A stretch of DNA of 64,000 nucleotides from Sanguinoderma infundibulare (lineage: Eukaryota; Basidiomycota; Agaricomycetes; Polyporales; Polyporaceae), in contig JAVLRN010000003.1 in the NCBI GenBank assembly GCA_032821775.1, positions 3,906,001 to 3,970,000 on the forward strand, given 5' to 3'. The notes under the pieces were generated by a model. The model did no database searches. It was not told the DNA's origin and saw only the letters and a program-made list of their open reading frames with translations. A program made the translations under genes and the position numbers. Shown in pieces: positions 21,862 through 62,999 of this stretch (within the stretch, counting starts at the first letter, position 1; every line of letters begins with the position of its first letter).

Positions 21862-22502
21862 ATGGATTCCAGGTCACCCGTGTTACCACCACCAGCTACG
21901 CCTCCGTGACGGCCTTCTAAACGCTCACATCAGGTGGTGGGACACCATTTCGAGAGCCCAAAAAGACGTCGGCCTTGGCGCAAAGACTCTGAAGTGATCA
22001 TTCGGCCCGGGCTTGCTCTCGAAGCGGAACAGCTGCTCAGCGAAATAAATGAGATTCGCAAACGTCACCAGCGCTCCGACATAGACACCCAGCCTTCCGA
22101 CATAGACACCCAGCCTGTAGTGGATGTTAGCAGCCCTCCGCCTGAAGAGGGATGCACTCCACATCCCAGCGACGACCTGCATGGTCACGAGCCAAGTTCA
22201 GGGACAGAAAACCCACAACCGCGTTCTCGGAGAGTACTTCCGGACGATACCACTCATCGCCTATACAATAACTGGCTCGCCTTGATCCCCACTCTGGTAC
22301 ACGACTATCTTGGCTACATGCAGCGAAGTCAAGGTCGGTTGGGTCACCCTCTTGAAGTTAAGACGAACGTGTGCCACTGCAAAAGACTGCCAGTGTGCAC
22401 CCCCAAGGAACTGAATATCCAATGTCTTCATGTCGACCATACGTCATTGCTCATTCTAAGCAGTAACAACATGAACTCATTTCAACAGACTTGATTACAA
22501 TC
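21862..22502 (+). pseudogene. 5' part of the outer CxC1-type KDZ transposase
   Basis: The ATG at 21862 begins MDSRSPVLPPP. The frame then meets TGA at 21907-21909, where CGA would keep it open, and continues to 22442. It encodes the N-terminal region of KDZ transposases with the CxC1 cysteine cluster: basic KRRRPWRK, the conserved WLALIPTLVHDYLGYM segment, and Cys-cluster positions VCHCKRLPVC and IQCLHVDH. A likely intron runs 22443-22488. The gene stops at the insertion site of the 23.6-kb element. Its continuation is at 46078-50115. Across the break the reading phase misses by one base in my model, so decay or another splice choice is possible. Confidence 0.75.
22495..22502 (+). repeat. target-site duplication, left copy (TTACAATC)
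   Basis: The eight bases TTACAATC recur at 46070-46077. Removing 22503-46077 rejoins the transposase frame as L-I-T-I-A-F-E-T-C-E-C, with the cysteine pair where the CxC1 domain expects it. Eight-base duplications fit what is known of Zisupton/KDZ insertion. Confidence 0.75.
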
Positions 22503-23724
22503 AGACCATTCCACTAAAATCACCACAATTGTAAGGTAGCCGGAGGGGAGAAAATGCCATAATTGCTGTCGAGCCGCCGCTGGCCGGGGCCTGTGATTTT
22601 GCCACAAGTGCTGCCCGGCCGCTGTCAATTTCGTCCTCTATTCCGCCATGCGGCCGGTGGGCTTCAAAATCCAACGGTGGCCGTCTACCGTCCGTGCTTA
22701 CTTTTAGATTGGATTTCTGCATACAGGTCATGGTGTACTCATTGATTCCACTTCCCTGTGTGAATGACCGGGGGTGCTATTAACATGTAAACCATAGATG
22801 ATCACCGGCCGGTGGCGGATGGTGCCTACTAATGCCATCCGGCCGGCCTGTGATAGTAGCTGCTGCTGCCGACCGGCCGGTTCAGCATGGTAGCTGCTGC
22901 CACCATCCGCGCGCGAACCCGTGGTAGCTGTGGCTACCATCCGGCCGGGGCATCATGGTCGCTGGTACTATCGTACGGCCGCTGCTCGCCCTCCCTTACA
23001 CATATTCCAGTTTTTCCATCGTTTCTTCTGCAGTCAGCACATGGTGGGTACATGCCACCCATCATGTCAATTCGGCACCTATGCACACCGGTTAAACCTG
23101 GTGCCACCCGGCCGGTCAGCGCACATACCTACAAATGTATCCCGGCCCTTTGACACCTACTGTCCGACCGATGTGTGCTTGTCTTCTGGAGTCGTCGTCT
23201 GATGTCCGGCCGGTCGCCATCGGTCAGTGCGTGTGCCATCCGGCCCCTCGAACATATGACTGTGGACATCATCCGGTGGGAGTTTTGTTCGTTCTGCAGC
23301 TACCATCCAGCCCCGCGACAGTGTACAGGCATCGTTTTTCTCAGTCCGCCATACCTGAGGCATTCCCTCTGTGGTGGCCGGCCGCATGGCATTCCCCCCG
23401 ACCGGTTCGCCACGGCCGTACAGCATCAACACCCGCACCTGCTCACCGCCCGGTGCGTGACGTATTCTCTAAGGTAACTATCCAACCCCAGTCGCATGTA
23501 GCGTCCCACGTCGGGGCCTGTCTGGGACTCAATCTGCCCACTCCGGAGCCCATGCCCACTAACATTAAATGTTTTCTTGCCCAATTCATATCCATGCTCG
23601 TGCCTGTCACCTGTTCTGAGCAATATTTATTGTCGTACATGCCACCCGGTTATGCAAGTGCATTTACACATTTAATGATGTGCGTGAGTCAATAGGGATT
23701 TGATAGTGATACTGGTGCAAGCTC

Positions 23725-23798
23725 CCGTGGCATAGTGGTCTGCGCGTCTTCTTGAGCGCTACGCTGCTCGTGAAGCCCTGGGTTTGATTCCCACCACG
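23725..23798 (+). repeat. tRNA-like sequence 1 in the left arm
   Basis: It has an A-box-like tggcatagtgg and a B-box ggtttgattcc at tRNA spacing, closed by a ccgtgg/ccacgg outer stem. The anticodon arm does not fold convincingly. I read it as a tRNA-derived or SINE-like promoter, not a functional tRNA. Confidence 0.5.
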
Positions 23799-24065
23799 GT
23801 CCTAGACCACAGTTGTAACAAGTTTTTTTTTTCAGATGAACGGTGCGCAATAGCACGACCGGGGTGTTCACCCAATTACTAGGGTCCATTTGCACAAGTA
23901 GTATTCTGTTCATTCTGCCACTACCTTCCAGCCCCGCCACAGTGTACTGCCAGCCCGGAACAGCAATAATCCAAGATGCCACCCGACCGGAGCCCACGGA
24001 ATGATGTAAAGATTATGGCCATCGAGGCGAGTACTAGAGGCGTTTGGTAGCAGTACTGGTACAAG

Positions 24066-24145
24066 GTACTGTGGCGTAGTGGTCTACGCGTCTTCATGAG
24101 CGCTACCAGCACTCGTCAAGCCCTGGGTTCGATTCCCGGCACGGT
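24066..24145 (+). repeat. tRNA-like sequence 2 in the left arm
   Basis: A-box tggcgtagtgg and B-box ggttcgattcc are perfect matches to the pol III consensus, with a plausible D stem (gcgt/acgc). The acceptor and anticodon stems are imperfect. It is a close relative of the copies at 23725 and, inverted, at 44631. Confidence 0.55.
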
Positions 24146-24330
24146 CGATGCACGAGCAACAGGTCTTTTTTCCCCACATAACTGTGCTGCGTCTGTTTGC
24201 ACGACTATTAACTTCAACAATTCAAAACATTTTTAAGAGGGCCATTGCGCTCACCGGAGCGGTGACCGGCCGGACGCCATTCGTGGTGGCACACTGCGAC
24301 CGGCCGTGCGCGTGTTGTACTCGCCAACGT

Positions 24331-25105
24331 CACCCGCCCGGGATGCAACGTTGTATTACAGGTATGTGCGCACCTAGACTGTGTGACTTGTTTCTGTGTT
24401 GTCCTTCGGCTCCGACTAACGTTTTATGCTTCCGGACACATTTGTTGCAGTACATCAGTTCGTGATCCCTCGCCGGGGTGGGGACCGGTCAGATGGCATT
24501 CGTGGCTGCGCTCTGCGTCCGGCCGTGTACCGACCGTACCCACAAACGTCACCCGCCCGGGATGCAACGTTGTATTACAGGTATGTGCGCACCTAGACTG
24601 TGTGACTTGTTTCTGTGTTGTCCTTCGGCTCCGACTAACGTTTTATTCTTCCGGACACATTTGTTGCAGTATACCGGTTCGTGATCCCTCGCCGGGGTGG
24701 GGACCGGTCGGATGGCATTCGTGGCTGTGCTCTGCGTCCGGCCATGTACCGACCGTACCCACAAACGTCACCCGCCCGGGATGCAACGTTGTATTACAGG
24801 TATGTGCGCACCTAGACTGTGTGACTTGTTTCTGTGTTGTCCTTCGGCTCCGACTAACGTTTTATTCTTCCGGACACATTTGTTGCAGTATACCGGTTCG
24901 TGATCCCTCGCCGGGGTGGGGACCGGTCGGATGGCATTCGTGGCTGTGCTCTGCGTCCGGCCATGTACCGACCGTACCCACAAACGTCACCCGCCCGGGA
25001 TGCAACGTTGTATTACAGGTATGTGCGCACCTAGACTGTGTGACTTGTTTCTGTGTTGTCCTTCGGCTCCGACTAACGTTTTATGCTTCCGGACACATTT
25101 GTTGC
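24331..25105 (+). repeat. 219-bp tandem repeat array, four copies
   Basis: The word cacccgcccgggatgcaacg recurs at about 24331, 24550, 24769 and 24988, a 219-base period; copies are nearly identical. Because 219 is divisible by three, the array gives a long repetitive open frame that I regard as non-coding. Inverted, diverged copies lie at about 43791, 44010, 44229 and 44420 in the right arm. Confidence 0.9.
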
Positions 25106-25237
25106 AGTCCAGTATTTCGTGATACACATTCCATATTCCTCTCGACACGCAGTTGACATGTAATACATTTATATTCGCGCGGTGGGCTCCAGAAATGACG
25201 GGTGAACGCGCAAACAGTTGCCCTCGCGCGCGCACAC

Positions 25238-25460
25238 ATGCTGGACCCTGCCGCTTCGCACATGCCAGTCCCCGTGCCGTCGCACAGCGCGCGCCTTGAC
25301 CACATCGTCGAAGAAACCCGGAAGTCAAATTGAACCACTACCGGAATGTGCAACAGCGCTACGAGCGTGTCCAGGGAAGCCGACGCGAGAGTAACATGAG
25401 CGTCGGTGATGCCCTGAAGACCGACGAATACGAGTACGGTGCCGGTTCCGACGAGGAATG
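25238..25460 (+). pseudogene. small acidic-tailed gene, frameshifted
   Basis: An ATG at 25238 opens a frame reading MLDPAASHMPVPVPSHS and ends at TGA after RKSN. One base later another frame continues in a coding-like way through YRNVQQRYERV to an acidic end EYEYGAGSDEE and a stop at about 25460. It is either a single-base frameshift in a small gene or two unrelated frames. No family is recognised. The acidic C-terminus resembles the end of the duplicated gene at 26664-28026. Confidence 0.35.
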
Positions 25461-25797
25461 ACGTAAGGATCGTCATCGTGTACGAATAGCACAGCTCCGT
25501 GTAATCCGGGAAGGAATTCGAAAGTGATCTCCGGTGACGAAGGTTTTGATCAGCTAACACGGTCACGCGGTCGTGCGACCCACTCGAACGCGTCCAAAAG
25601 CGGTTCAGGCGAAGTTGAGGAGGGGCATGGGAGCCTTCGAGGAAGAATAGGGCCTAGGGCTTGAACACGAGGCCCAACCTGAGTGGATACCAAAGGAGCT
25701 GGTGTCGTAATGGACGCCGCGAGAGGAGAACGTTCTGAGAAGCTTAAAGGAAGAAGTCAGAACCACACGAGCGCCCAATTATTCCGTAACGCTCATC

Positions 25798-26435
25798 ATG
25801 CCGCTGGTTCTTCAAGTTCTGCCTCCCTTCCAGGACTCGTTCGCGGGCGCCCAGGAGCTCCGTCGGACTTCATTCGGCCTGAACAGTGCGCTCGAAAACC
25901 AAGTCCAACGACGGCTGGACGGGCTGGGGAACAGAATCGCGTCCGGCGACGCACGGCCAGTGTTGGAACATGAGGTAAAGACCATCGTCGAAGACTTGGT
26001 ACGCCCGCAGCGCCTAGGTTGATTGACAGCTACTGAACCACACCGGAAGATGTACCTGGCTGCGAACGCGGGGTCCTGGGGTGCTTTCGAAGCACTCCCA
26101 TCGGTGTCGAGGCGTTGTTCACGCGATTGCGTGACATCGTGGAACTCGCTCCACCGGCTTTCGAGATGGCCCGGACCACGCGCCGCTACGTAGGGCAGGC
26201 GCAGGACCTCATCCTGATCGAAAGCACTCGTGATCGCCTTGTGCGAGTTCGTCGGGACCGAGCGAACGCCATCGAATTACGGGACCTGGTCTTGCGGCTT
26301 GATCCTCCGAACCCCGGATTTGCAGCAGACGTGAACGAACTGGTGGCCCAAACTGCAGCTGCCGAAATCGAAGCGGCGCGCGCGTTCAGCGCGACGAACT
26401 TCCAAGTGACCGACCGCGAGGACTACTATCTTTAA
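25798..26435 (+). CDS. unrecognised small protein, two exons
   Basis: Exons 25798-25974 and 26112-26435 (donor gtaaag, acceptor gtcgag) close in phase and give 166 residues. The protein is predicted mostly helical, rich in Arg, Glu and Ala (RRLDGLGNR, AFEMARTTRR), with no Cys cluster, signal peptide or membrane segment. It lies between the left arm and the duplicated gene, so it is part of the element's cargo block. No function can be assigned. Confidence 0.5.
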
Positions 26436-26663
26436 AAAGAAGGCCTCGGCGAAGTCGTTGAGGAAGATTGAGGACACAGGTAAGAAGGATGATGATTGCC
26501 AAAAAGGGACGAGTTTGACGCTAGGTTTGGACCCTGTCGGAAGCGAAGGCGCGAGGTTGCAGTTAGACCCTGCGTGTTGTAGGTAGCCCGTGAACAAAAT
26601 ACCTTGTCGGTTTGCCCACCGCTCATCCTCGCACACACACCATCCCTCGCACCACCGCCCACC

Positions 26664-28026
26664 ATGCCCGCGCTCACCGACGCCGACGTAGACTCCGTCG
26701 CCACCGCCTTCCTGCGCAGGCTCGTCGACGACGTGCTTGGCACCATCTGCGCGAACGGCCGGCTCGGCCCCCACCACCACCAGGTCGTCGCCGTCGCCGC
26801 CAACTTCATGTCCGTCGTGCGGGGCCTTCCCGCCGACGCCGACGCGGACCCCCTCTTCCACGAATTTCTCGGCAGCCTTCGTGCGTTCGAAAATGACCGG
26901 TTGTACGACCCCCACGCAATCTACGACCTCACCGCCATGTACTCGACGTACACCCGGACACAACGCTACGCCGCCGCTCGCAAGGAGTTCGACCGCGCGA
27001 GCGATGAGTTCCGGACCGCCCGGGAGCTCCACAGCCAATCCATCGCGCAGTCGCTCGCGCACACCAACCCTGGCTACGCCGTTGGCGTCGCCGGCTGCTT
27101 GCGCACCGCCAAGGACCGGCTGGAGGCCACGTTGGACGCGTTGTCCATCGCGGAGTACGCCTGTAAGTAAACGTCCGTTCTCCCCGTCTGACTGACCACT
27201 CAAAAGGTTGCACAGTGGTCCGGTCCATGGTGACCGGCAAGTACTGGTGCGCCGGCGAGGGGCCGAACGATAGCTTGTCAGTTTGCCCACCGCCCATCCT
27301 CGCACACACACCATCCCCCGCACCACCGCCCACCATGCCCGCGCTCACTGACACCAACGTAGACTCCGTCGCCACTGCCCTCCTGTGCAGGCTCATTGAC
27401 GACGTGCTTGGCATCATCCGCGCGAACGGCCGGCTCGGCCCCCACCACCACCAAGTCGTCTCCGTCACCGCCAACTTCATGTCCGTCGTGCGGGGCCTTC
27501 CCGCCGACGCCGACGCGGACCCCCTCTTCCACGAATTTCTCGGCAGCCTTCGTGCGTTCGAAAATGACCGGTTGTACGACCCCCGCGCAATCTACGACCT
27601 CACCGCCATGTACTCGACGTACACCCGGACACAACGCTACGCCGCCGCTCGCAAGGAGTTCAACCGCGCGAGCGACGAGTTCCGGACCGCCCGGGAGCTC
27701 CACAGCCATTCCATCGCGCAGTCGCTCGCGCACACCAACCCTGGCTACGCCGTCGGCGTCGCTGACTGCTTGCGCACCGCCAAGGACCAGCTGGAGGCCG
27801 CGTTGGACGCGTTGTCCATCGCGGAGTATGCCTGTAAGTAAACGTCCGTTCTCCCCGCCTGACTGACCACTCAAAAGGTTGCACAGTGGTCCGGTCCATG
27901 GTGACCGGCAAGTACTGGTGCGCCGGCGAGGGGCCGGACGCGCCTACGGTCAAGGAGGAGGACGAAGAGGAGGGCGAGTGGGGTGACGAGGACGCAGAGG
28001 GCGAGGACGATGTCGAGATGGAGTAG
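26664..28026 (+). CDS. unrecognised gene, tandem internal duplication, acidic tail
   Basis: Two ~670-bp copies, nearly identical, follow head to tail. Copy 1 starts at 26664 (MPALTDADVDSVATA) and copy 2 at 27335 (MPALTDTNVDSVATA). Each has an intron beginning gtaagtaaacg. Copy 1 has lost its own C-terminal tail. After its intron (27163-27206) the frame runs without a stop through the former 5' leader into copy 2, so exons 26664-27162, 27207-27833 and 27878-28026 would encode one protein with two repeats and a final tail of about 26 residues rich in Glu and Asp. Alternatively copy 2 is an independent gene. Each repeat is helical, with motifs FHEFLGSLRAFEND and YTRTQRYAAARKEF. No known domain is recognised. 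Confidence 0.6.
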
Positions 28027-28334
28027 GGAGTGTCGCGGGAAGACTCGCGCAAACGACGCGCGAGGTAAAAGGTCGTGGACCGAACGTTTTTCTTGTCGAA
28101 TTGCGTAGCCAGTCGAACCCCGTCTTGCAGTGAGATTCAACCTGCGTCAATTAAGTCGAAACAAACACTGAGTGAAGTCTGCATCCCCCCCGCTGAAAGA
28201 CGAACAGCGAGGGTTCCGTACGGAACAAAACTGAATCCAAAACATGAGCTGATGCTGAAAATAAAAGAAACCGAATCCCAGCGCAACGCACAATACGTGC
28301 GCGCGCATTTGGCAAGGACGTACGCGCCCCCACG

Positions 28335-28490
28335 GTTGCAATCATATCATTAAATGGATAAACACGCCTCGAAAGCATGGTGGTATGTACGACCATGAAT
28401 ATCGCTTGGCCGGGTAGCGGGCATGAGCATGGATCAATGTTAGTTGACATTTCCTCCCGAGTGGGCACATCCTATCCCGGAGTGCCCGGC
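28335..28490 (+). repeat. internal copy of the element's arm sequence
   Basis: Words gaatatcgc, ggcatgagcatgg, atgttagttgacat and gagtgggca occur in the same order and orientation as at 44745-44890 in the right arm. They are the reverse complement of 23510-23690 in the left arm. It therefore closes the cargo block 25.2-28.0 kb with an end-like sequence facing the left arm. Confidence 0.75.
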
Positions 28491-28651
28491 CGCGTGCCAT
28501 ACATGCACACATCCGCCGTCCGGCCGCGCTGCAGTCCTGGCAACACCTTCGCAACAGTTTCTTCAAGCTCCGGAGTCTCTGCAAAATTACAAACACATCT
28601 GATGGACTTATTCTATGGTTATCCCATATGCCCATTTCGACTCTGAAACCT

Positions 28652-29475
28652 CTACTTGTCCTCTCCGAGTTCGGCCATCTGGCTCGTAAGTGCGTTCATC
28701 CGCTGTTCCTTTCGGTCGATAGTCCTCATGATCCCGTCGCTCACACGTTCCATGCCCATTTTCCAGTCATTTAGATCTTGCTCGAACATCGGGATCGGAG
28801 CAGCCTGGAAGCAGGAGTTAGCGCCCCGTCTCTCTCAAACACAATTTCTTACCACAAACTTCTCGGGATCCCTCCACCAGCTCGGGCGTCCCCTCGGGGC
28901 CCCACGTTCATCCCAGAGCCACCACTGCGCGAAGCCCCATTCATGTCCAACGTCTCCGGTGACATTGTCCAGGCCTGCGGTCATCCGGAGGTAGGACTCT
29001 CGGTCTAACTGCGTGATATCAAACGACATCCGGCCGTCCGTCCACGTCACGCCGGAAAGGAGGGCTTGCAGTGGTGCGGGCAGCTGAACAGACTGAGAAC
29101 CGCGATTCGATTTGTTCTCGTCGAACACCATGGCGGCCTCGACTCCTGTCGCATGTATCGTGCTCCACTGGCAACACGATACATCAGCAAACTCATGCCC
29201 TCCCGGCCAAAGTCAGACTCACGAGTTCCCGGGCAATTCCATGGTTCCATTGCCTCAGCGTTATCTCCTCCGGAGAGGAAGGAAAGGCTACCAGTGCCTT
29301 CCGGATGCGTCCCAACGTAAGCAGAATCTCCGCTCGACACCCCCACAGGGTGGTAGACGCTTGCAATGGTGGTTGTGTCGTGTTCATAGTCACGACTGTA
29401 CCCGGCTGGGAAGATGCTCCAGCAAATAACTAGCACGACGGTTGATGGCACAATGGAAGAGAACGACACCGGCAT
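28652..29475 (-). CDS. unrecognised protein with N-terminal hydrophobic segment
   Basis: Minus-strand gene just downstream of the KDZ transposase. The start at 29475 reads MPVSFSSIVPSTVVLVICW, a signal peptide or membrane anchor. The last two exons, ending at 28853 and running 28804-28652, join in phase (48-bp intron). The first junction, near 29330-29150, is uncertain. The C-terminal part has a helical segment DWKMGMERVSDGIMRTI ending in ELGEDK. I recognise no family and cannot tell whether it takes part in transposition. The 40-base gap to the transposase stop suggests it travels with that gene. Confidence 0.5.
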
Positions 29476-29515
29476 CCAAATATTACAGTGGCAATCAGAT
29501 AAGAGCTATGGGCGC

Positions 29516-32500
29516 TTAGTATGGTTGATCTCTCCCTTGCGCCGCCGCAAATGCCGCCGTTGCGTGCTCACGGAGTCCCTTCCACAAGGAGACTTGCTGC
29601 AAAGCAAATGCTCGATGCCCCCTAGTCTCGCTTGCCTCCGCCCAAGTTTTCCAATGCTCCGAGGCCGTCTGGAAAGACCGGACAGTACTTTCCATCTCGA
29701 AAGGAACCAGCTTGATCTCCTCTTCCCAACGGCACTTTCTGGAGTATGCCCGGAGCCAGAGCATGCGACGGACTATTCGTAAAATAGAAGTGGTTAGTCC
29801 GCACGCACACGTACTCCACCGGAGGCATTTCACTCACACTTGTGAAGCCATCCCGGCCCATCAGTTTCATCGGAGTCCTCTACTTGCCATATCCAAGAGG
29901 CGTGGACATCCCGGAGGCCCTGCGTAAACTGCTCGAGGACCGTGGTGCTGGTGCGCAGGTCCTCGCGTTTGATCTCCTTGTATCTATCTGTCAGCCTTTC
30001 CCGGAGCTGCGCATCCTCGCGATTCTCCGGGTCCGTGTCAAATAGACGTTGTAAGCATTTGCGGGCGTGGGCGTAGACTCGTACGTGCTTCATCAGGCTC
30101 TCGTCGGTCACCCTGAGTTCGTCGAAACTTCGGAGCTTCTTGCGGTACGAGGTTGCCTTCCGCACTTTCTTCCGATAAATAAGGGACTTGTATCCGATTT
30201 CCGTCTGGATGCCCTGGAGGCAGTCATTGAGTTGACCTTCTCGGAGCTCCCGCTCCGTCTCCACCAGCGACAGTAGCCCCCGCTGCTTGAGGTAGGGGTA
30301 GCCCAGCGTGGACGGAAGGGCGATCAGCTGATGTTCCGGCTGAAGCAAGTCTTCGATATCCCCGGACCTTGCCCGTGCTTGGCGCACTTCTTCGTCGTCC
30401 CATTGCTCGCCGAAGTCAGTCACATCAGCCGTCACAGGGACACCATTTGCGCTGACGGAAATGTTCAGATGCTTGTCTGACGCTTTGTGGAAGGCCTTAA
30501 TCCCCGTGGCGAGTTTCTGCCGGTGAGTCTCCAGGCTCAATCATGCATTGGTACCGGAGGTAGCCATCATGGCGCGCGCAGTATACGCAATCCCAATCCT
30601 ATCCCAACCATTGCCGTCAGTTCTATGCTGCTCCTAGGATAGTGAGGCACTCACTTCCGTTCTTCCAGACGGATTCCTGCAGAGATCCACGAGGCCGCAC
30701 CCACCATTGACTCGTCTGCCCCCGTCTCCTCCTGGGTGAGCGCAAGTTCCTTGTCCTTCCGGCTGGGTACTGATTTACCGGTCAGTATTCTACGGCGAGT
30801 ACAACGCAAGGGTGACTCACGGGGCTGCTTCGTCACATCATATATGTCCATTGCACTGGGATCTTCTGTTCGAGCCTCATCGGCCGCAACTGCTTCCTGT
30901 CTCCACTCCTCGCATTGTGTCGGCCCACTCGCCTCGCACAACCTGTTGAACGCATCCACGACTGGCTGCCATTCCTTGCAAGCTCGCCGCCACTTCCGTA
31001 TGAGCGTACTCACTGTCATTGTATGTAATCAGTGACCGGCACGACTTCTTGGTTGATTTGCGTACTTATTTGCGTTAGTTTCATCCAGTTTGAATCATTC
31101 ATCGTGTCGTCGATAACCTTCCTCCGGTGTGCTGACGACATCCCCCGAGTGGAGTCAGCGATTGCATTGATTTTGTTCCAGAGGGTTTCGAGAATTTCCC
31201 CATCCTGTACTCCGGCTCCGGAGATGAAGTTGCAGGAGAATCGTGGAAAGCATCGTAGGACATGACCATGTACGTGAAACTGACCAATGCCCCGCAAGAT
31301 GTTCAAGCCAAGAGGCATTCGCAGGCCAGGGCTTTCATGGAACCGGTCGAGGAGATGAATGAAGTATTGGCACATGACATCGTAGATCATGAGTACGCAT
31401 GTTAGGCCGTTGAGGTTGGCGAATATCCAGTGCAGAATGTAGTCCATGTTTCTCTGTCTTTGTGAACGGGAGTGAGTTTGGCCACCTTCCACCATGGGTT
31501 CGGATGCGAACCTACCTTTCACCTAGTTGGAAGTCCACACATGCATGCGGAGCAAAGAAACCGTGCCGGGAGCATGCGGCAGCCCCGATACCAGTGGCTT
31601 CCAGCTTGGCCCGCCCGACCGACACATTGAGGACCGCACGATGGTCGTTGCATGTGATCTTCTACTGTCTATTGTGAGCTATGCCCTCCGGAGCCTTACG
31701 TCGTATACCGCACCTCGGCAAACTCGGCTGCTGTCTTCAGATGTTCCTTGTATGGGGCGTCTTCTACCATGAAGCCATGTCCATCCGCCAGCGGGACGTC
31801 GTCCTCCGGACGTCGCATGTGACGGTGTTGCGCGCTGAAGTTGCCATCAAGAACCACCGACTGCAAGTACTTGAACCTAGTGCGCTCGGAGGTGTATAGC
31901 AAATGCTTGTACGCTGAGAACCTAACTACTTACTGTTCCGGGTCACTCTCCCAACCCTCCAGTAGATTGATGTCCGGTTGCGGACATGCGGGGCATCGCA
32001 CCGCGAGGTCTCCGGGCCCCACGGGGTCTGAGCGGTGACCGAATCCCCCATCGCGGCGAAGGCGGAGATTCTGCCATTGTCTGGACGTTCGGAGCAGCTC
32101 CTTGTATCAATCCTGTGGCTCCGGTATGAATCTCGCGGTCTCCGGAAGCCTTAATCAATGTTGACCCACTGGTACCAAATGCGGAAACGCAGGGTTGGTC
32201 GTCCTTCACAATTTGTTGTAATAGTTCCGCGCCGGAGTCTTGCACTCTTTGTTGGCCAGAAGAAAGTCGTCTAAGAGTTTCTGCGAGAACATTGTGTGAG
32301 GCCGGATGGTGGACGCAGGATAGTAGCCGAGGTCCAGAAGCTGCAGGTCCTCGTGCGGAGCATTCGGACACGCACAGAACGTTACTGATATTTCGTGAAT
32401 GCCGTCCGCGTCGACAACGACCATCATACGGTCCCCGCTATACATTGCGGCCTGAGCCACGGTGGCTCCGAGTGGTGGCTCGCAATGTTCGAACGACGGT

Positions 32501-33354: not shown

Positions 33355-33446
33355 CTCCAATGTTGATGTCAGTGGAGAGGTTGGTGGCGTTGAGGAGAGG
33401 CACACCGACGTTGGATGTAATCAAACAATCTGGGCGGCTGTAGATT

Positions 33447-34762: not shown

Positions 34763-35220
34763 CGTCGACAATGCCAATGCGAGGTCGGTCCCGGCACCAA
34801 GAGAGAAGCAGGAATCAGAGAGGGTGCGGCGGGGAGGTTAGAAGCGAGACGAGCGGGGGCGCACCGGTGTGTTTCGATCGTGCACCACCTTTGGCGCTCA
34901 TAGGACGGAGCGGTCCGGGAGGTTTGTGGTTACATCTGCTGTGCGGCCGGTCGGTCATCTTGGACTCAACCCGCAGGTGGACTCATGGTCGCGGCCGAAT
35001 GAAAATTGTGCCTACCATTTGCTCTCCGCCCGGTGAGCTCTGCAGAAGAAATCACTTGGAGCCTACGTCCCCTTCGCTCTCTCACTGTGCTCCTCACTGT
35101 GGCCCCGCGGCGGCCTTTGCCTCTAGCTCTTTACCGGGTTGCTATCTGCTGGTCGCCGCTCTCTCCTCACTTCCGGTTTTTCCTGTTTGGCTCCCTGTGT
35201 CCCCACCATCTGCCGGCAGC

Positions 35221-38200
35221 ATGACCACCAACATTGATGATTTCACCGAGGAGGACGAAGCCATGCTCGAGGCTCGTCACGCAGAGTATCGAAGGACGAG
35301 TGCCAAAAACAAGACGGCGTTCCGTGAGGCAATCGCGAAGTGGATGATCAAGAAACGCGGCGAGCAGGAGACCCCGTTGGCGGTCAGCCTTCTAAGCAAA
35401 GTATGTGGCCTGTTTATCGGAGGCCAACAGCTTCCCTGTTAACGCACGCTGTAGAAAGTTGGCACTTGGTTCGGAAACAACACCGCCAAAAAAAAATCAT
35501 CACGGGGGCCTGTCAATCCCGGGCGCATGACCAATGGCGAACGGGTTTGGGGCCGGCGGAATCAACATACCATCAAGGCGGCGATGCCTCCAGAAAAAAG
35601 CAAGAAGGACAAAGACTACCTGGCGACGTGGAACGCGACGCGCAAGAGGCTTTGGGAGGCTATGCCGGAGGATGAGCAGCGTGAGTGGGTCGAGCTGGCG
35701 AGGATGTGGAATGAGGAAGGTCCGAAGGATACCAACAAGCCTCAGTGCGTGATGCATGTCTACTGTACGTTCCACTGTACTCATGCCTGGTCTTGATAGA
35801 CAAGCTCGGAAGCGTGCGGGGGCGTGGATGCGGAAGATCTCCATGCTCTTCTGGCGGGAATTCGGGATGCCCTTATTCATGTACGGCGTTTTCCCAAATG
35901 AGAACAAGCAAATCAACGCGGTCATGTACGTCACGTGTTTAGTACTACCAATGCGTACACGGGTGGTTGAATCCCAATTGTGTGATCATTGCAGCTACGA
36001 CTCATCGCAGTTGTTCGCGGAGAGGGACAAAACCTTCCCTCGTTTCCGAGAGATAGACGAGTGGGATGTGAACGTCCGCCGGAAGTTCTGGAACTTCTTC
36101 TCCACCGTCTTGTACCCCGAGTCTGCCCCCACAGAGAACCTGGAGGCCGTCAAGGCTACACGGCGTGCGTCTCCCGCTCCCTTTGCGTTTTCCCTATACG
36201 ACGACGGTACCCCGATCCTTCCCCTCAACCACCCAGTGGAGAAGGACAGAGCGCTCACACACCCCGAGCGCCAGGCAATCCTTTGTCAATACATGAGGAT
36301 CCATTACGGTTGGTGCTCAGTATGTACGTGGGTGAGGACCCCTATTAACATGTGAATAGGCTTCGCCAACGGGCACCAGGTTCAGGGGGCCCCGTGGGCT
36401 GGCATGCGCACCTATCCAGACCAGTTCTTCGACGATGGAATGCTTCCGGAGGGGTTTATGTGGGCAGACCCTGAAAAGCTGAACGACACACCCCTCCGTG
36501 GATTGTTCGAACACATCCACGCCCTCGAACATCCCATCGAAGGGGGTGATGAGGTACCAGCGATTCGCTTCCGTTTCAAAGCGTATCTCACCCATGAAAA
36601 CGGCCAAGACGTCTTCCACGACGCGATCTACAATGGCCTCCCGGGAGAGTGGCGTCTTCGGCGTGAGCGCCGCACCGTTCGCCCGCCGACCTTCCTGGAT
36701 TCTCCCGATGCGGACACTATCGGCATGGCTGGTGAACCCTCTTCGTCTTTGTCCTCTCGCCGTCCTATTTTCGGCGCGCCAACGACAGCCATGCGGAAGA
36801 GACGGGGTTCGGTTGATCGTGCGCTTAAGAGTCTCCGGCAGAAGGCCAGAAAGGGGAGGGCGCCGGCCAAGAAGGGGAAGGGGAAGGGCAAGGGAATGAG
36901 CAAGAAGAAGGGCAGGCGGAAGAAGAAAGAGGAGGAGGAGGAGGAGGAGGAGGAGGAGGAGGAGGAGGAGGAGGGGGAGTGGACGCAGACGGAGACGGAG
37001 ACGGAGGAGGGGGAGGAGTTCACATTCCCGGACGATTTGGACGGGGATTTCGAGGACGAGGAAGAGGAGGAGGAGGACGCGCTCGAGCAGCTGTTTGGTG
37101 GCATGGACGACGAGGCCTCTGGTGGTGAGTTCCCCGATGATGAAGCCGAAGAGCTGTTGGCTGGCCGTTCTGCGAAGCACGCCGCCCGCGCGAATAAAGG
37201 GAAGGCGAAGGCGACAACCATCTCGGACGCCGACGTGGCTCACACCCCGAAGCATCTCTCCCCATCCTCCGTCGGAGCCAGCGGGCCAGCGCGGTTCGCG
37301 TTCTTGCAAGGTTTGTGCAACCTTGCAGAGTATCTTGCCATGCTCGACAGGCTCCGCGGCAAGGTAGGCCATGTCCCGCGGCCCGCTGATAGAGTGCTAA
37401 TCGATGGTGCCCTACAGCTTGAGCTTCCGGTTGTAGTTCCGCCTCTTGACAGGCTCCGATGGGCAAGCTGGTCGACTTCCACCCCGCACATGCCCGTCGA
37501 CGTTCATGAGGATCCGGACAGGGCTGCGAAGCTCATGAAGTGGCTCGCCGACGGTATCCCACCTGGATCGACTACCAAGGACTGTCAGCGGTACTGTCTG
37601 GCCATGGGCATGGCCCTGCGAGATATCCACGTATCGCACTTCATTGAAGACGGCGAACCACTCCCCGACGAGATCCCCCACTACCTTCAGGGCACTCACC
37701 TGAGCTTTACCAACGTGGGCGAACTGCTCACTGTGTGCAAGAAACAGGGAGCTGTGGTGCCTCGTCCGGTGAAACGAGCCGCCGCCGGGAAAGGGAACGG
37801 TGTCCCGATCACCGCCCCATCTCCGGCGAATGACGCCGCCCCGAGCGCAGGGCAAACGGGGCCGCCGTCCACGGGGACGCATACCTCGCCAACCGGAGCG
37901 CCTCCGGATCTCGAGGATGGGGAAGAGAAGGACCCGGGAGACGTGGAGGACAGTCCGGAGAACGTCAACGAGCAGAACTCATCGGGAGGTCGCAAGGAGC
38001 GGGGAAATGGCCCACGCAAGTGTACGCGGTCCACAAACGCTGGCCCCTCTCGCGTTCCCCGCTCTGCAACAGATGGCGTGGCTGCAACCGGAGGAGCGCA
38101 AGCTCCGGTGGACGGTACACCGACAGAGTCTGGAGATCGGGACATGAACACCAAGCGGGCCCGGACGTCAACCAGCTCTGACCTGGTCATCCGCACCCGT

Positions 38201-38311
38201 AAGCAAAGGGCCGTGGAGGCCAAAGTGACCGCTACGGAGCCAGCGGCTCCTGCCCCGAGGGCAGCACGGAGGGCATCCAAGAAGGGAGGGGCGGCATCGA
38301 CGAAATCGTAG
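35221..38311 (+). CDS. large acidic protein, probable HMG-like gene of KDZ elements
   Basis: Exons 35221-35400, 35455-35744, 35800-35925, 35995-36308 and 36360-38311 close in phase. A further 54-base in-frame segment (37364-37417, gtaggc to ctacag with a gctaat branch) is probably a sixth intron, giving 935 residues. Residues ~100-180 are basic and aromatic, with KSKKDKDYLATWNATRKRLW and EWVELARMWNEEG, which fits a divergent HMG box. A Lys-rich then poly-Glu tract (gag repeats at 36930-36975) follows. The C-terminus is Pro/Ser/Lys-rich and ends KKGGAASTKS. A divergent HMG gene is known in KDZ-TET/JBP elements. My match is by context and composition, not by a strong motif. Confidence 0.65.
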
Positions 38312-38414
38312 GTTTTTTTTGTATGGACTCTAAAGCAATGGCATCGACGTGTATCTCTGAGGTTGAGTGTGAGCAGAACAGATTTGATTGGATGATATAG
38401 GACATGCATGGTAG

Positions 38415-41400
38415 CTACGCGTCTGAGGAATGAGACATGCCAAACGAAAATCCAGTCCCGCTGCAGGTGTCCGGCACCACCTTCCCACCAGTTGGGGTTC
38501 CGGAGCCCCATGCAAGACGGGACTGCATCACCGGATCTCCGAGCAGGCGAAGCGCGCGGTCTCCGAGATTGAACTGCCCCAAAAACTCCCGAATCCATGC
38601 GTTCACGCTTGCATTGAACTGATCTGTTCGTGAAGTCTCGAGGGCCGCCACATGCTCCGTGAGGCTGCGCAGGGCCTCCACGACTTCAGAGGTTTGAGAG
38701 GCACTCGGGGCCAGATTCTGGGCGGGAATCGAAAAGGATGAAGTGCCGCCAAGCGGGGGCATTGGGAGGGCTGATGTCGACGCCCACGGGCTGGTTGGAA
38801 GGATGTCGGCATCATGGGGAGGTGATGAATGGAGGCTCTCGAGGACCCGTACGCGCCCCTCGAGGTCCCGGATCCAACCAGGAATCTCCTCGAATGCCGA
38901 GTGCGTAGTTTGCGAGATATGCGCGTTGAGTCGTCCGGCCGCATGCTGGAACGAAGTAAGTGTTGTCTCGAGCACCTGCCGGAGCCGATCAGAAGCCTCT
39001 TGGGAGGCGGTACCACCATCGGCAAGCGCGTCGGCCATGCATTGAAGCGATGTTGCGGCGGAGCGGCCAACACCCCTGACCTCCTCTATGAGCTTGGCCT
39101 TCAGCGACTCAAGCTCGGGCGCCAACATGTACTTGGCGTCGACTGAGAGCTCGGTGAACTGAAGTCCCATCTTGAACAACAGCTGGTCGACGCGGGCGAT
39201 GTCGGGTCGGATGGGTCGGATGTCCTCGCGCAAAGAGTCGTATCGACGCCACATCTCATGGTACAAGCTGTGGAGCCGCTGCAGCACCTCCAGCATTTCG
39301 AGGAGCGCAGACCAGTGAATAGGGATCGTAGGGACGTGACGGAACACCTTGGCGAGTCGCCCGACGTTGTCGGAGACGGTGGCGACCATCGCGGCGGTCT
39401 CGGCAAGGTCCTTTGCGGTGTCTTGCATCTGGAAGAACAACTGCTCATAACACGCTTGAAAGCTGGTCGTTTCATTTGCGGTGAGCATCGCATTGCGCTG
39501 AGCCGTGCGAACCCCGTCCTCGAGCTTCCGGAGGCGGCTTGAAACACATTGAGAGGCCTCCGGGAGACCCTCGATGTCTGCAAAACCTTCACGCGCGTCA
39601 TCCACCAACTTGAGTGTCTCCAATCCGAGATAGAACGCTTTGGAGGGTGGAGTGGAGGGACGACTCAAGGGGTTGCTTGAGGGACCCTCCGGCACCTCAA
39701 GGGGAAGTCCGCGAAGACGCAGAAACTCTTCAAGGGTCTCCGGCGTGGCTTCGGGGTGAGCGCAATGGGTACAATCTGCGTCCCCTGTGAGCCAAGGGAG
39801 ATCCCACCATTTTCCTAGAACAGTGTGAATAAATCAATTGCCCTGCAACTGGAACTCGGACGACAAAAGGCACCAAGCAAACACACAAGGGCAAGCGGGA
39901 GGAAGTAGAACGTAGCTGCAGCGTGCCCGGAAGATACACGTACGACGTTGACAGGTTGTACATGTGAAAACAAAGAGGACAAAGGCATATAATCAGATTA
40001 AAGGTCTCGAGTAACATACCTGACAATGGGGGAACCTGTTGTGGGAGGAGAGCCTCCCCACGCTCCGAGCCGGAGTCCAGTTCTTCAGGGGGTACACGCG
40101 CGGTATCGGCGCGGATGAACTCCGATGGCATGGTGCTAGCGTTGACGTACCTCACTGGGCGATCGTCCTTCCTCGGGCTGCGGGACCGAGACGGGGAGTG
40201 GGCCACCGGAGCCTCATTGGTCAAGGGCCCGTCATCGTTGAGCTGAGATCCACAATGAATTGGAACTTCGGAGCCGGAAGCTTGCAGATGACGGTCCGTA
40301 TCCGGCAGCCCATGAGACCCGCTCTCTTCGACAAGGTCGTTCAGAGCATCTTGCATGGAGACCTCCGGTTGTTCGATATCCAACACATGTGAGATGCGAT
40401 CGACGTCGACGGTGAGCTCCGTAGCGAAAGTATCATCTGCCATATCAACATCCATGTCGACCTCGGACGTGATTCGAGGGGGCGCGGCAGAAGAGAGGGT
40501 CGGGGGCAGGGAACTCGGAACATTCATGGGGCGAGGAGATGATACAATGGCGGAAGGACCAACAGACAGCATGGGCGAGTGCGAGTGGGCTCCCCCAATT
40601 GGAAATGAGGCCAGAGCAGTCCCAGCACGAGGGGAGGGGGGATCACGAGGTGGAGGGGGACCCTTTTTGCGCATGTTTGCATCATATAGATTGTACTGGT
40701 CGGAGAACCACTGTGGAGGATACTGGGAAGGAGCCTCTTCCCCGGGGGAGAAGGGAGGTGAAGGGTATTGCTGGGGATCGTTGAGCGTGCGCCAGTAGAC
40801 CCAGGCGAGGTAGGCCGCGGTGCTTGGGTGAGAAGCATGGACAGTAAGGGAGCACTTAGTCCTGCCCTTGTGGCACGCATGGCAGCTGGATGACACGAGA
40901 GGACAGAGATAACACGGGCGAGACGCGGTGGAGCAGCTTTTACACGAAGCAGGCTGGAGGAACATGATAAGATGCAGTTGTATATATGATGATAGCACAT
41001 GACGTACGTGAAGAAGCCATTCCCAACGCACTTTCTCCTCCGGCAAGACGTACTTGTCCGGGAACGACTGAGGCTGAGCGCGCTCTGTCACCTTTCCCTT
41101 CGTCTGCGCGATCGATGGCTCCGGAGCCTTGAGAGCCACTGCCGCAACGGCCTTCCCCTTGCCCTTGGCCTTGGATGAGGTAGCCTTCGGAGACGGGGGA
41201 GCGAGAGGTGCGATGTCGACGTCGACGGCCACGGCTGCGCGGGGCGCACTACTTGCACCTCGCGCACGACTTGCAGATCGAGCGCGACTTGCAGATCGAG
41301 CGCGACGAGGCATGGAGTTCCCTCCGATGGAGGTGGCTGGAGCTGCACTGGGCTCCGCCACAGCGCTAGCGGGCGACTGCGAGGTCGGCCTGGGAGGGAC

Positions 41401-42084
41401 TCGAACGGGAAGCAAAACGTAAGGGCTCCCCGTACTGTTGGCCTTCTTCATACCTCCGGGGACTATACGTTGATCAAGGGACGTTGCGGACTGATTGGGC
41501 CGCTGGATAGGCTCTTGATGGCCCGTAGATGGCTGTGCGGTGGCTTGCTTCATCTGCGGCGCGCCCGATGTCACAGGTGGGGCTGATGAGGGGTATGCGC
41601 GGGCGTGAGTGTTTTTTCTATCACCAGAAAAGACGAGGTGCGCACCTGAGGCCTCATAAACCCACCACCTGTTTGGTAGCTCCTCCTCGCGGAGAAGCCC
41701 AACGTCTCCTTGATCATCCGGTGTGAAGGGAAGCTTGGGAAGACCCGGGGGGGGGCTGAGGGATGGGTGGCCGACGTCGACGGGTGCGATGGACTCAATG
41801 TTAATGAGCGCGCGACGTTCTCGATGGGCGGAGTTACTCTCCCAGATGGCGCCCATCGCGAGCCTCGGAAGGCGACTGAAGCGTGACCTTGCAAGCCGCT
41901 GGGTAAGAGTAGTGAGAGTGTGGCGAAAGCGAGTGTCCCAGCTCTGGCGGTGAGGGGAATCAAGGCGGGGTTTTGCGGCCCATGCGAAGTGCAATTCACT
42001 TGCGAGCCTCCGGACATCTTGAATCTGTTCCGGAGTCGGCGCGGGAGGCGGTTGTTTTTTCTGAGTGGTTCCGCGAGTGGACAT
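38415..42084 (-). CDS. Cys-cluster, coiled-coil protein of the element
   Basis: Four exons close in phase: 42084-41625, 41582-41008, 40953-40020 and 39814-38415, giving 1122 residues. The start MSTRGTTQKKQPPP gives a basic N-terminus. Around residue 345 a cysteine array C-x2-C, C-x2-C, C-x2-C, C (SCKSCS, CYLCP, CHACHKGRTKC) resembles the zinc cluster seen in many agaricomycete transposon-linked proteins. A second pair occurs in DCTHCAHPE at the start of the last exon. The C-terminal ~400 residues are helical with heptad-like spacing. RS-dipeptide repeats (ASRARSASRAR) lie in exon 2. It is convergent with the HMG-like gene. It is likely nuclear and DNA-binding, but that is inference. Confidence 0.7.
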
Positions 42085-42357
42085 GATGGCAAGATATGTG
42101 GTGGGATGGGGTGGAGGTGCAGGCAAACTGCCTGGCGATCAGAGCATGGTGGTCTGCAGGTCTGCCACGGTCCGGGGCCTCCCGGACGCCGGTCCCGGTG
42201 GCACATCCGACCAGGATATCTGTTCTGTGTTCTGCCTGTTGCCATTCCTCGTGTGAGTCGAAGTTCGCGTGGTCGGTCTACCAGAGTGGTGAGTTAACTT
42301 CGGAACTTTCAAGCAACGCGATGACGTACTGATCGTATATTTTAGCTCGATCCGTAC

Positions 42358-43393
42358 ATGGGGAGTAAACGACGCCGTTCAAAGCGCCCACAAGGGGACG
42401 TTGACGAAGGCCCAGCTGCAGAGGGTTCGTGGTCACCGGTGCTTCGTTACTGACTGATTTATGATGTGAATTAATCTATAGGCTCAGAAAGTCGGGTGTC
42501 TGTCAAGCGCGTGCGTTTGACACTGCCCACACCCCCCCGCATGCGCCCAGACACTGTGGTGGTCGAAGATACCGAAGACAGACTGAACATACCGGATGGC
42601 CAGTCGTCGGGTCGCGAAACTAGGTAAATATGTGTTCTGATTCATGAGCCGGCGGGATTATAATTTGTATTGTTCATGGACAGTGAGGAGTGGGCCAACA
42701 TATCCGCGATGGTCATGTACAGCTCAGACTCCGACCCGGGTGACGGCGACGGCTCTCCTTCGGAGCCCCCGGCTTCGACAACAGACCGCCAATCCGCATT
42801 CGTGGATTACGGGTGTGATAGCTTGGCTGGCGTGTTGCGTGACAAAGACAGCTGCGACCCTCAGCTCGCGACATCAATGTTGGTGGATTACGGGACGGAT
42901 GAAGACCTCGACGAGAATGCCGGCGCAACAGATACTGCAAGCGTATGCCCCGGAGCTCCGGATGGGGCTCCCAGCCGAGGAATAGATGCTAGGTACGTGA
43001 TCATTAAGCATTTTAGGTTGTCACCATGTCAGTGACCCGAGGAGGCCTAGCTTTTCGCTTTTAGGTAATATGTCATCTCCAGAGGAGATATCGAATCCGG
43101 AACTTCCGGCCACCGGTGTTGCTCCGGAGCCTTTCGCGCAAGAGGGGTACATGGACAGACATAGGGACGATGTGCTCTGGTATCTTCGGGAGCAGCAGGC
43201 AGAGCTATCTGCTGACGTTGCCGAGTTGGAAGCGCTCGATACTCGGATGCGCACTGCTCGTTCTGCAGCCCTCAGTTACGCACCTGAACACTGGGGAGCA
43301 TACGGCGTTATCGTTACGTCGAGAGCCCACATAGCCATGACCATCTGGAGTACATTGGAGACGGGGTTGGCAGAGGATGGAGAAGATCGCTGA
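42358..43393 (+). CDS. unrecognised gene at the right end of the core
   Basis: Exons 42358-42424, 42482-42623, 42684-42992 and 43051-43393 close in phase and give 286 residues. The N-terminus is strongly basic (MGSKRRRSKRPQ), suggesting a nuclear signal. The middle is acidic and has two FVDYG/LVDYG repeats. The C-terminus is a predicted helix (YLREQQAELSADVAELEALD). It is divergent from the Cys-cluster gene with ~270 bp between the starts, so a shared promoter is likely. No family is recognised. Confidence 0.6.
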
Positions 43394-43599
43394 GACAGAG
43401 GAGCATCGCGGACTTGACATGCATAGCTACCTATATTACAATGTTGCACGTGGGGGGTGGACGTTTTTACCACCTCCGGACTCCTTCTGTTTCCAATGTG
43501 ACCATGGCTGGCAACTGATGATTGATTTTATTTGCGTTCCACCTCACGCTACTACTTACATCTCACCCCAGTATCTACTTATGTCCAGCGAAGAATTAG

Positions 43600-46069
43600 T
43601 ACGTTTGTGCGTACAAACCACGCACGGCCGGGCGCAGACAGCTGCCACAGATGCCATCCGACCCGTCCCGACCTGGGTGAGGGATCACGAACTACTGCAC
43701 TGCAATAAACGTGTCCGGAAGAATAAAATGTCAGTCGGAGTCGTCAGATGACGCAGACAAAGGTCGGACAGTCGAGGTGCACACATACCTGTAATACGAC
43801 GTCGCATCCCGGGCGGGTGACATCTGTGTGTACGAACTGTGCATGGCCGGGCGCCGACAGCCGCCACAAATGCCATCCGACCGGTCCCCACCCCGGTCAG
43901 GGATCGCACACTGCTGTCCTGCAATAAACGTGTCTGGAAGAATAAAAAGTTAGTCGGAGCCGTCAGACGACGTAGAAAAAATATTCGGAGAGTCGAGGTG
44001 CACACATACCTGTAATACGACGTCGTATCCCGGGCGGGTGACATTTGCCAGTACGAACCGTGTACGGCCGGATGCGGAGGGCACCCACAAATGCCATCCG
44101 GCCGGTCCCCCTCCCGATGAGGGATCACGAACTTCTGTACTGCAATAAACATGTCCGGATGAATAAAATATCAGTAACTTGAGCGGTCAGAGCACACAGA
44201 GAATTTTCGGAAAGTCGAGGTGCACACATAACTGGAATACGAGATCGCAACCCGGGCGGGTGACATCTGTGTGTACGAACCACGCACGGCCGGACGCAGA
44301 CAGCCGCCACGAACGCCATCCGGCCGGCCCCCCCTCCCGTCAGGCAGCACGACCTAGTGTGCGGCAATACATGTGTTCAGAACAATGAAATGTCAGTCGG
44401 AGAGTCGATGTGCGCACATACCTGTTTTGGGACGTCGCATCCAGGGCGGGTGACATTTGCGAGTACCAGTCGCCTCACTATTAAAGACCTATTGAGTTGC
44501 TCAAATTAATAATTGTGCAAATGGACCCTAGTAATCGAACATGCAACCGAGGGTATTGCAGAGCGGACACCCCGGTCGTGCTATTGAGCACGGTTCATCT
44601 AGAAAAAAACATGCTACAATTGTGGTTCAGGACCGTGGTGGGAATCGAACCCAGAGCTTCACGAGTGCAGGTAGCGCTCATGAAGATGCGTAGACCACTA
44701 CGCCACGGCAGCTTGTAGCAGTAGCACTATTAAGTCACTCACATTATGAAATGTGTAAACAGACTTCGATAGCCAGGTGGTTTGTACCACGATGAATATC
44801 GCTCAGATAGGTGACAGGCATGAGCATGTATATGAAATGGGCGAGAAGAAATTCAATGTTAGTTGACATGTGCTCCGGAGTGGGCAGATCCAGTCCCGGA
44901 CCCTCCCCGGTGTAGCACTGCTATGTAACATGCGACTTCCAATGAATACTTACTTTAAATAATACATCACACTCCGGGCGGTCAGCTGGTGCGAATGTCG
45001 ATGCCGCACGGCCGTGGCTAACCAGTCATGGGAAATGCCATGCGGCCGGTCACCGGAGAGGGAATGCCTGAGGTATGGTGGACTGAGGAAGGTGATGCCT
45101 ACTGCCAGCAAGCCTAACAGCAACAGAGCATAATGTCATTCAGCCGGAGTACACCAATCAAGCAGAAGCGCTCCGGGGCCCTGGAAGAGATGCATACCTG
45201 TATTAAAGGTTGCACTCCGGCCGGCGAGTACATGTACGGGGCTACGCTGCACGGCCGGACGTCACTACTCGCCTGGTATGCGGTGCCGCGGATAGTACTC
45301 CGGAGAATCCATGTAGGTTCGTGAACTCCGATGGATGGAACCCAGCCACAGAAATATTAGTATGGCTCTGCGAAAAGCGATAAGTATACCTGCGTTAACA
45401 GTTGCATGCCGGCCGGCCGATGCATGTGTGTGGCTATGCCACCCGGCCGGAAAGCAGTATTTGCCCGCATAGCTGACATACATACAGCGAATGCAGCGAG
45501 GCAACATTAATGGTCCCATAAACTAGACATCAGTAACTACGAGCAGGAACCAAAAACAAGGCGATCCGAGGTCTGATTGCTGAGATATGGCGACCCCTCC
45601 TCCTCCCGGGGAGGACAGGATCGCAATATCTGGGCAACCAACAGTAGCATCATTGCAATCAAGGGCTCGCTGGAACCAGATAAAAATCACGATTCCAACC
45701 CACCCTTCAGCGCACAATTATGTGAAGAATTGGTGGAGATATGGGCAGATGTTTCCATACCTAGGGCCCCTATTGCATCTCCGATAGTCGGGTAACTGCT
45801 CCTCATATCAATGTGCACTGAAGCAAATTTGAATGGTAGATTTAATTGGCACCTATCAGGGGTGAAAACAGCGACGGTACACCGCTAGAACATGGATTAT
45901 ATCAGTACTGCTCGGCCGGTGGATAGTCTTCATAATATCAGAACTGCTCGGCCGGTAGACAGTCTCGACTACAGTCCAAAGGCCAGCCCCGACCGGCCCA
46001 ACAGCACTTATATCATTTTATCCCCGCCGGCTGACCAGCATATACAGTGTACTACGTTGGAATTGTGTG
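43600..46069 (-). repeat. right arm of the 23.6-kb element
   Basis: Inverted counterpart of the left arm. It holds four diverged units of about 219, 219 and 190 bp (cccgggcgggtgac words at 43791, 44010, 44229, 44420), one tRNA-like sequence, the gaatatcgc/gagtgggca block (44790-44890) and, from 45000 to 46030, many cggccgg words. The tip carries tccccgccgg, inverse of the left tip. Confidence 0.8.
44631..44710 (-). repeat. tRNA-like sequence 3 in the right arm
   Basis: On the minus strand it has A-box tggcgtagtgg and B-box ggttcgattcc, and is closely similar to the copy at 24066. The inverted position matches the inverted arms. Confidence 0.55.
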
Positions 46070-46077
46070 TTACAATC
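46070..46077 (+). repeat. target-site duplication, right copy (TTACAATC)
   Basis: Same eight bases as 22495-22502. It is immediately followed by the transposase codons for A-F-E-T-C-E-C. Confidence 0.75.
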
Positions 46078-49215: not shown

Positions 49216-49272
49216 GTACGTAACGATCCAATACCATTGTCGCTGCGATTCTTATGTTTTGAGTGGGTACAG

Positions 49273-62990: not shown

Positions 62991-62999
62991 ATTTCGGTG

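Follow-up and report, generated by a model that had tools for sequence, protein, structure and literature searches.

The stretch of DNA presented above, a 64-kb window (C3:3906001-3970000) on a 48.9-Mb genome assembled into 87 contigs (labelled in the style C3), raises the question of what has split a KDZ transposase gene into two parts that now lie more than 23 kb apart. All coordinates are given in window numbering, those above 64000 continuing along the same contig to the right. It is concluded, with a probability of about 0.88, that a 23,568-bp transposon encoding a CxC2-class KDZ transposase and a CcTET-like dioxygenase inserted, through a 7-bp staggered cut, into a transposase exon of a second KDZ transposon, 33.3 kb in length and flanked by target site duplications (TSDs) of 8 bp. 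The insertion is in itself ordinary. Both pairs of boundaries, both duplications, the empty sites, the further copies and the domain content can be read directly from the assembly.

Boundaries and genes of the inner element

The ends of the inner element were defined by searching the genome with 298 bp of its left tip and 300 bp of its right tip. Each query found twelve places, the left matches being 97-100% identical in seven cases and 82-85% in five, with the right matches belonging to the same twelve. Every left match starts at the first base of the query and every right match ends at its last; because the queries stop at the edges of the element, it is the flanks, different in every one of the twelve copies, that show the loss of homology outside. 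A perfect 7-bp TSD, with new letters each time, surrounds eleven of these, and the twelfth (C2:401420) has a single mismatch. The sequence-only reading had interpreted TTACAATC, which is indeed present at 22495-22502 and 46070-46077, as an 8-bp duplication of the Zisupton type. However, the eighth flanking base agrees on both sides in the window copy alone and differs in the eleven others, while the base C preceding AGACC is common to all twelve left tips. Comparison of the twelve copies hence rules out an 8-bp TSD for this element, and the combination of a 7-bp TSD with a C common to all tips places it at 22502-46069. The bounded insertion proposed from 22503 onward therefore stands with its exact edges corrected, and the suggested search for copies with the same tips and different duplications was successful. 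All twelve copies have the ends CA..TG.

22495..22501, unstranded: left copy of the 7-bp target duplication TTACAAT, from comparison of 12 copies
22502..46069, minus strand (taken from the direction of its TET and transposase genes): the inner element, a Kyakuja-like TET+ KDZ transposon of 23,568 bp with ends CAGACC...GTGTG, edges common to 12/12 left and right tips
22502..22513, plus strand: left tip CAGACCATTCCA, an imperfect terminal inverted repeat (TIR), 10/12 bases
23327..25123, plus strand: left subterminal inverted arm, of 219-bp tandem repeats
43601..45100, minus strand: right subterminal inverted arm, of tandem repeats of ~221 bp
46058..46069, minus strand: right tip CACACAATTCCA (reverse complement), pairing with the left tip
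46070..46076, unstranded: right copy of the 7-bp target duplication TTACAAT, from comparison of 12 copies

The site of insertion was investigated with the 451 bp immediately to the right of the element (46070-46520), which match seven places in the genome. All six copies outside the window run uninterrupted across the site, with 95.2-99.0% identity over the 500-bp join. Empty sites are thus available within the same genome, and the two half-genes, which might never have been joined, are contiguous in each of the six. The interruption of a gene that resumes on the right is accordingly real, as the sequence-only reading had held; its frame does not, however, stop exactly at the left edge, since in the empty-site copy on C18 the insertion falls roughly twelve bases inside an exon, right after an apparent intron end (the intron being placed by eye). 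Neither does the interrupted KDZ gene stand alone: it belongs to a second complete TET-bearing transposon running past the window, which the sequence-only reading had missed; copies with shared ends and TSD rule out a lone, host-borne CxC1-KDZ gene.

The inverted structure at the ends of the inner element was recovered as described in the earlier reading. The tips can be aligned in inverted orientation over ~60 bp, with a score of 54, where 500 shuffles gave no more than 28, and the subterminal arms are 72-91% complementary, piece by piece, being built from tandem units of 219 and 221 bp. A sequence resembling an RNA polymerase III B box was seen in the arms by eye only, and no tRNA or Rfam family was found there; a tRNA search of 20000-48000 found none, and no Rfam family reached its gathering score. 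Seven of the twelve copies are full length, from 22,456 to 24,301 bp, and five are short, from 4,101 to 5,085 bp. The one short copy whose sequence was examined has ~0.65 kb of the left end and 1.3 kb of the right end in common, without coding homology, and looks non-autonomous.

The genes of the inner element, with Pfam expectation values (E), are as follows.

29833..30540, minus strand: probable C-terminal exon of the KDZ transposase, an open frame of 236 amino acids that is collinear with the core and was identified by eye, with no Pfam KDZ match
31019..31522, minus strand: KDZ transposase core exon (PF18758, E 6.4e-26), open in 7/7 full-length copies
32209..32985, minus strand: CxC2 cysteine cluster exon of the KDZ transposase (PF18803, E 3.3e-21; PF18802, 2.7e-7)
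33450..33995, minus strand: TET/JBP catalytic exon with the motif HRD...H...R (PF12851, E 7.6e-14)
34031..34837, minus strand: probable upstream exons of the TET/JBP gene; hand-joined pieces are 43% identical to a 421-amino-acid Ganoderma TET protein over 98%
35455..38308, plus strand: cargo reading frames, one of 651 amino acids; none of the pieces scanned matched Pfam
38418..42138, minus strand: cargo reading frames of 472 and 802 amino acids, with no Pfam match above cut-off

On the minus strand, the order is thus TET/JBP followed by the CxC2 KDZ transposase. The catalytic exon matches the structures of CcTET (7vpn, E 4.3e-12 over 95 residues; 8jkk, 4.1e-12), keeping His326, Asp328 and Asp337 of that protein along with the second His. 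An HMG gene, as in other KDZ elements with TET/JBP, could not be confirmed, there being no HMG match at E<=1 in the two pieces of cargo tested.

The sections of Kojima 2025 (PMC12730594) drawn on here describe TET+ Kyakuja elements of Agaricomycetes with 7-bp TSDs, 5'-CA..TG-3' ends and no TIR. The inner element is alike in its KDZ transposase, its CcTET-like dioxygenase of the AG type, its TSD and its ends; it differs in having imperfect inverted tips (10/12) and long inverted subterminal arms. According to the same source, Asp337 of CcTET is essential for activity on 5-methylcytosine, and position 331 is Gly or Ser; the inner element has retained Asp337, and differs in having Ala in place of Gly331. 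As judged from sequence, it is therefore Kyakuja-like in each of the features compared (TSD, ends, KDZ transposase, AG-type TET), with the absence of TIRs being the point on which the likeness is not clean. For both elements, the labels Kyakuja and Zisupton reflect TSDs, ends and domains.

The outer element and its cargo

The outer element reaches 14.4 kb beyond the window. Homology among its left tips starts at 21561 in all seven copies, and the right end at 78418 was established through comparison with the C18 copy and a right-tip search. The ten matches found by the latter comprise eight for the seven outer copies, that on C4 being split in two, and two relatives at 83% on C67 and C4. The 8-bp TSD is identical on both sides of six of the seven copies, while the C12 copy agrees over 7 bp only, and the TIRs, CACCTAAGGCAGGTCCCC and CACCCCAGGCAGGACCCT, match in inverted orientation at 14/18 bases.

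21553..21560, unstranded: left copy of the 8-bp target duplication CAATATAC, its partner lying directly after C3:3984418 (window coordinate 78418)
21561..64000, on to 78418, plus strand: the outer KDZ transposon, with CACCTAAGGCAGG as its left end; it measures 56,858 bp, or 33,283 bp once the insert is subtracted
21910..22491, plus strand: N-terminal coding stretch of the CxC1-KDZ transposase, severed by the insertion, continuous in the empty-site copy on C18
46077..46296, plus strand: KDZ gene resumes, with part of the CxC1 cluster (PF18802 passes its cut-off at E 1.4e-6; PF18803, at 2.8e-4, does not)
46455..47668, plus strand: KDZ transposase core in two exons (PF18758, E 2.8e-22)
48349..49590, plus strand: C-terminal reading frame of the KDZ gene, leading into the Ulp1 domain
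49594..50112, plus strand: pieces of a Ulp1-type C48 peptidase with HW, D and QxxxWDCG motifs (PF02902, E 2e-10, pieces joined with X at stops and gaps)
56426..57427, minus strand: 1.0-kb piece of a G-patch gene, probably from the host, frame broken (PF01585, E 1.1e-6)
66128-66538, outside the window: TET/JBP-like exon with the motif HRD...H...R (PF12851, 37.3 bits, cut-off 34.9)
69051-71902, outside the window: what is left of another KDZ transposase, namely a CxC2 cluster (E 8.8e-31) and C-terminal parts, adjoining the TET-like gene

The domain matches and the boundaries hence agree with the earlier proposal that a KDZ element with a TET/JBP gene lies inside a KDZ of the other cysteine-cluster class, which itself carries a Ulp1 (C48) domain.

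There is considerable variation in the size of the outer copies: four span 33.6-34.6 kb, and those on C6 and C4 span 88 kb and 141 kb respectively, having presumably been enlarged through further insertions. One short inner-type copy was seen directly in each of these two. The C6 copy also has a further insert of ~12 kb (C6:826590 / 838631), at which a 6-bp overlap of the matches may represent the target duplication. Of the twelve inner-type copies, three sit within outer ones, and two of these lie in the same gene with 0.41 kb between them. The low probability of such nesting under a uniform model (P 2.3e-5) is not evidence of target choice, because transposon-rich regions would nest alike.

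A TET-like gene is found at the matching place in all seven outer copies, of which six pass the PF12851 cut-off, with the C4 copy scoring 34.5. The exon did not match CcTET, or any other TET structure in the PDB, by sequence; the protein has few relatives, at 41-45% identity, and a fold prediction for one of these (mean predicted local distance difference test score 34.3) was unusable and was not used. Three further genes (C2:3251947, C2:1014834 and C13:638963) are 78-89% identical to the outer one and have no match to the KDZ remnant adjoining them. The block formed by the TET-like gene and the CxC2-KDZ remnant, the two sharing one orientation, is present in 7/7 outer copies, although in that on C6 it is split by the 12-kb insert. 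Neither a tblastn search of 69892-71245, using as queries five of the twelve KDZ loci and the inner frames, nor PF18758 detected the core of this second transposase. What we take to be core-like motifs can be seen by eye at 70.1-70.5 kb, which makes it likely that the core was lost through decay and not by a clean deletion. Former tips of this remnant did not come to light, no search having been aimed at them.

Besides its presence in every one of the seven outer copies, the G-patch piece recurs once elsewhere, at C6:2770401, where it is 87-88% identical and a frame of 455 amino acids is open. This suggests that it was probably captured from the host gene on C6, which is presumed to be TFIP11-like. 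At 62000-62990, further frames resemble by eye a protein phosphatase (no Pfam match) and an eIF4G-type MA3 domain (62.7-63.0 kb, 0.049, under cut-off), and are perhaps more captured parts of host genes. A 12-bp minisatellite lies within the outer KDZ gene (46593-46760), and a longer, related array near the right end (74.2-74.9 kb) varies in length among copies. To the left of 21.5 kb are ordinary genes: pieces of a glyoxal oxidase, a sugar transporter and an amino-acid permease.

In the sections drawn on of the study that describes it (PMC12810828), KDZ1 of Cryptococcus neoformans resembles the outer element in its CxC1 KDZ transposase, TIRs and 8-bp TSDs. It is, however, ~11 kb in length with TIRs of 241 bp, compared with 33 kb and short TIRs (14/18), and those sections mention no TET gene, Ulp1 domain or second KDZ, all three of which the outer element possesses. 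The TET+ Zisupton of Agaricales and Auriculariales, as characterised in the part of Kojima 2025 (PMC12730594) used here, is alike in combining KDZ and TET/JBP genes and in its rule of 8-bp TSDs; the outer element differs in that its TET-like exon has HRD instead of the PE-type HxE and lacks a CcTET match in the PDB, and in the presence of a second, broken KDZ. With its 8-bp TSD and TIRs, the outer element appears Zisupton-like, and is not filed as Zisupton itself. Compared with CxC1-KDZ elements such as that of Cryptococcus, it stands out for its threefold length, a different type of TET-like gene and the broken second KDZ.

Of the matches to the inner TET protein, four of six are named, as are three of four for the outer, and these belong to Ganoderma or to further fungi that form mushrooms, with identities of 34-45%. 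The host is therefore probably a polypore, as far as these relatives indicate. Among TET+ elements of Polyporales, the portion of Kojima 2025 (PMC12730594) relied on here records Kyakuja only, a picture to which the outer TET-bearing element would add if the host is indeed a polypore.

CpG changes and the weighing of explanations

The differences between copies have a strikingly biased spectrum. Between the outer copy in the window and that on C18 there are 154 differences in 12,950 aligned bp, made up of 149 transitions and 5 transversions, and 133 of the transitions are of the CpG type, where 27-28% would be expected by chance. In the tips of seven inner copies, polarised by majority with 18 columns left unpolarised, 117 of 151 changes are C>T at CpG, alongside 14 C>T elsewhere, 8 T>C and 12 transversions. 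On this pattern, the CpG transitions are best read as the footprint of methylated-cytosine deamination on both elements, which makes it very likely that methylated CpG, the TET substrate, has been present on both. It would also follow that the dioxygenases of the elements evidently did not wholly keep methylation off them. In the passages of Kojima 2025 (PMC12730594) consulted, TET is proposed to ease the silencing of transposons, and hypermutation is cited as not detected in this fungal group; CpG-biased hypermutation has been published for the Agaricomycetes Tricholoma matsutake and Rhizoctonia solani, going by the portions of those reports drawn on.

The mechanism that would account for the locus is cut-and-paste transposition, in which the KDZ transposase encoded by each element would have acted on the tips of that element and mobilised it, with a stagger of 7 bp for the inner and 8 bp for the outer. 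The insertion would have silenced the CxC1-KDZ gene of this single outer copy. With less certainty, the dioxygenases may oxidise 5-methylcytosine on the element that carries them, thereby easing its silencing. A number of points weigh against this account. It is founded throughout on sequence comparison, and the gene models of both elements were drawn by eye. The inner TET catalytic exon is open in six of the seven full-length copies and contains a TGA in the other. Between two outer copies, the TET exon shows 2 synonymous and 2 non-synonymous changes, the upstream piece 0 and 4, and the exons of the first KDZ a ratio of non-synonymous to synonymous rates (dN/dS) of 0.41-0.92, values that are too noisy to give a signal of selection. 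Furthermore, the CpG spectrum has no clean transposon-free control, and the captured G-patch piece also has a CpG excess relative to the host gene (46 of 64 transitions, with 21 transversions).

Were the inner element a Zisupton-type KDZ with 8-bp duplications, the 8-bp direct repeat flanking the window copy, taken alone, would be explained. The mismatched eighth base in all eleven other copies and the C common to the twelve left tips have already refuted this with regard to TSD length, and the CA..TG ends are as in Kyakuja with its 7-bp TSDs, going by the part of Kojima 2025 (PMC12730594) cited above; this alternative is consequently very improbable. That the junctions are an artefact of assembly or recombination is harder still to credit: although a single assembly was available, seven full-length copies occupy different sites, every one of them flanked by a duplication of its own, and six sites are empty. 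A better case can be made for TET/JBP genes that work on behalf of the host, for instance in genome-wide turnover of methylation, and ride on transposons by chance. Maps from Laccaria and Coprinopsis, as represented in the sections of PMC8889193 and Kojima 2025 used here, place oxidised methylcytosine on retrotransposons and DNA transposons alike, with few TET genes expressed. Conversely, the presence of a TET gene in 7/7 inner and 7/7 outer copies, and the open catalytic exons of six of the inner ones, fit use by the element, albeit not decisively, because the copies are young. Service to the host is on balance considered unlikely.

Passage of TET genes between transposon lineages

The outer element invites the suggestion that nesting is itself a route by which TET/JBP genes pass between lineages, the window capturing the first step of a second round. 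In the earlier round, an element with TET and CxC2-KDZ genes would have landed in a CxC1 element with 8-bp TSDs, after which its transposase core would have decayed while the TET-like gene was kept; the composite, both parts of which are carried by 7/7 copies, would then have been mobilised as one 33-kb unit, inside which a second TET element has now freshly inserted. This fits the data insofar as the order of TET then CxC2-KDZ is common to both elements. It is nevertheless a doubtful proposition, and is weakened by the three places in the genome that share the TET part alone. The word 'nested' does not occur in Kojima 2025 (PMC12730594).

There is about an even chance instead that the outer TET-like gene was captured alone, passively, and that the adjoining CxC2-KDZ remnant is unrelated. 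Those same three places, where no KDZ remnant is matched beside the gene, are what this would predict, and the part of Kojima 2025 (PMC12730594) drawn on reports no signature where shared TET stretches end. It is less easily reconciled with the adjacency of TET and CxC2-KDZ, in one orientation, in every outer copy (one being split by a later insert), or with the same order in the inner element, where TET lies upstream of CxC2-KDZ on one strand.

TET+ transposons are known, and the passage of TET/JBP genes between transposon lineages is still treated as a question in the portion of Kojima 2025 (PMC12730594) considered here. Here, two KDZ families that both carry TET genes are represented by full-length copies in a single genome; their ends are exactly defined, empty sites are at hand and one nesting is recent. 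The outer family pairs a broken second transposase with a TET-like gene, and the CpG record on both families ties the dioxygenases to their supposed substrate. The two nested elements thus lend themselves well to asking how enzymes of this kind move from one transposon to another.

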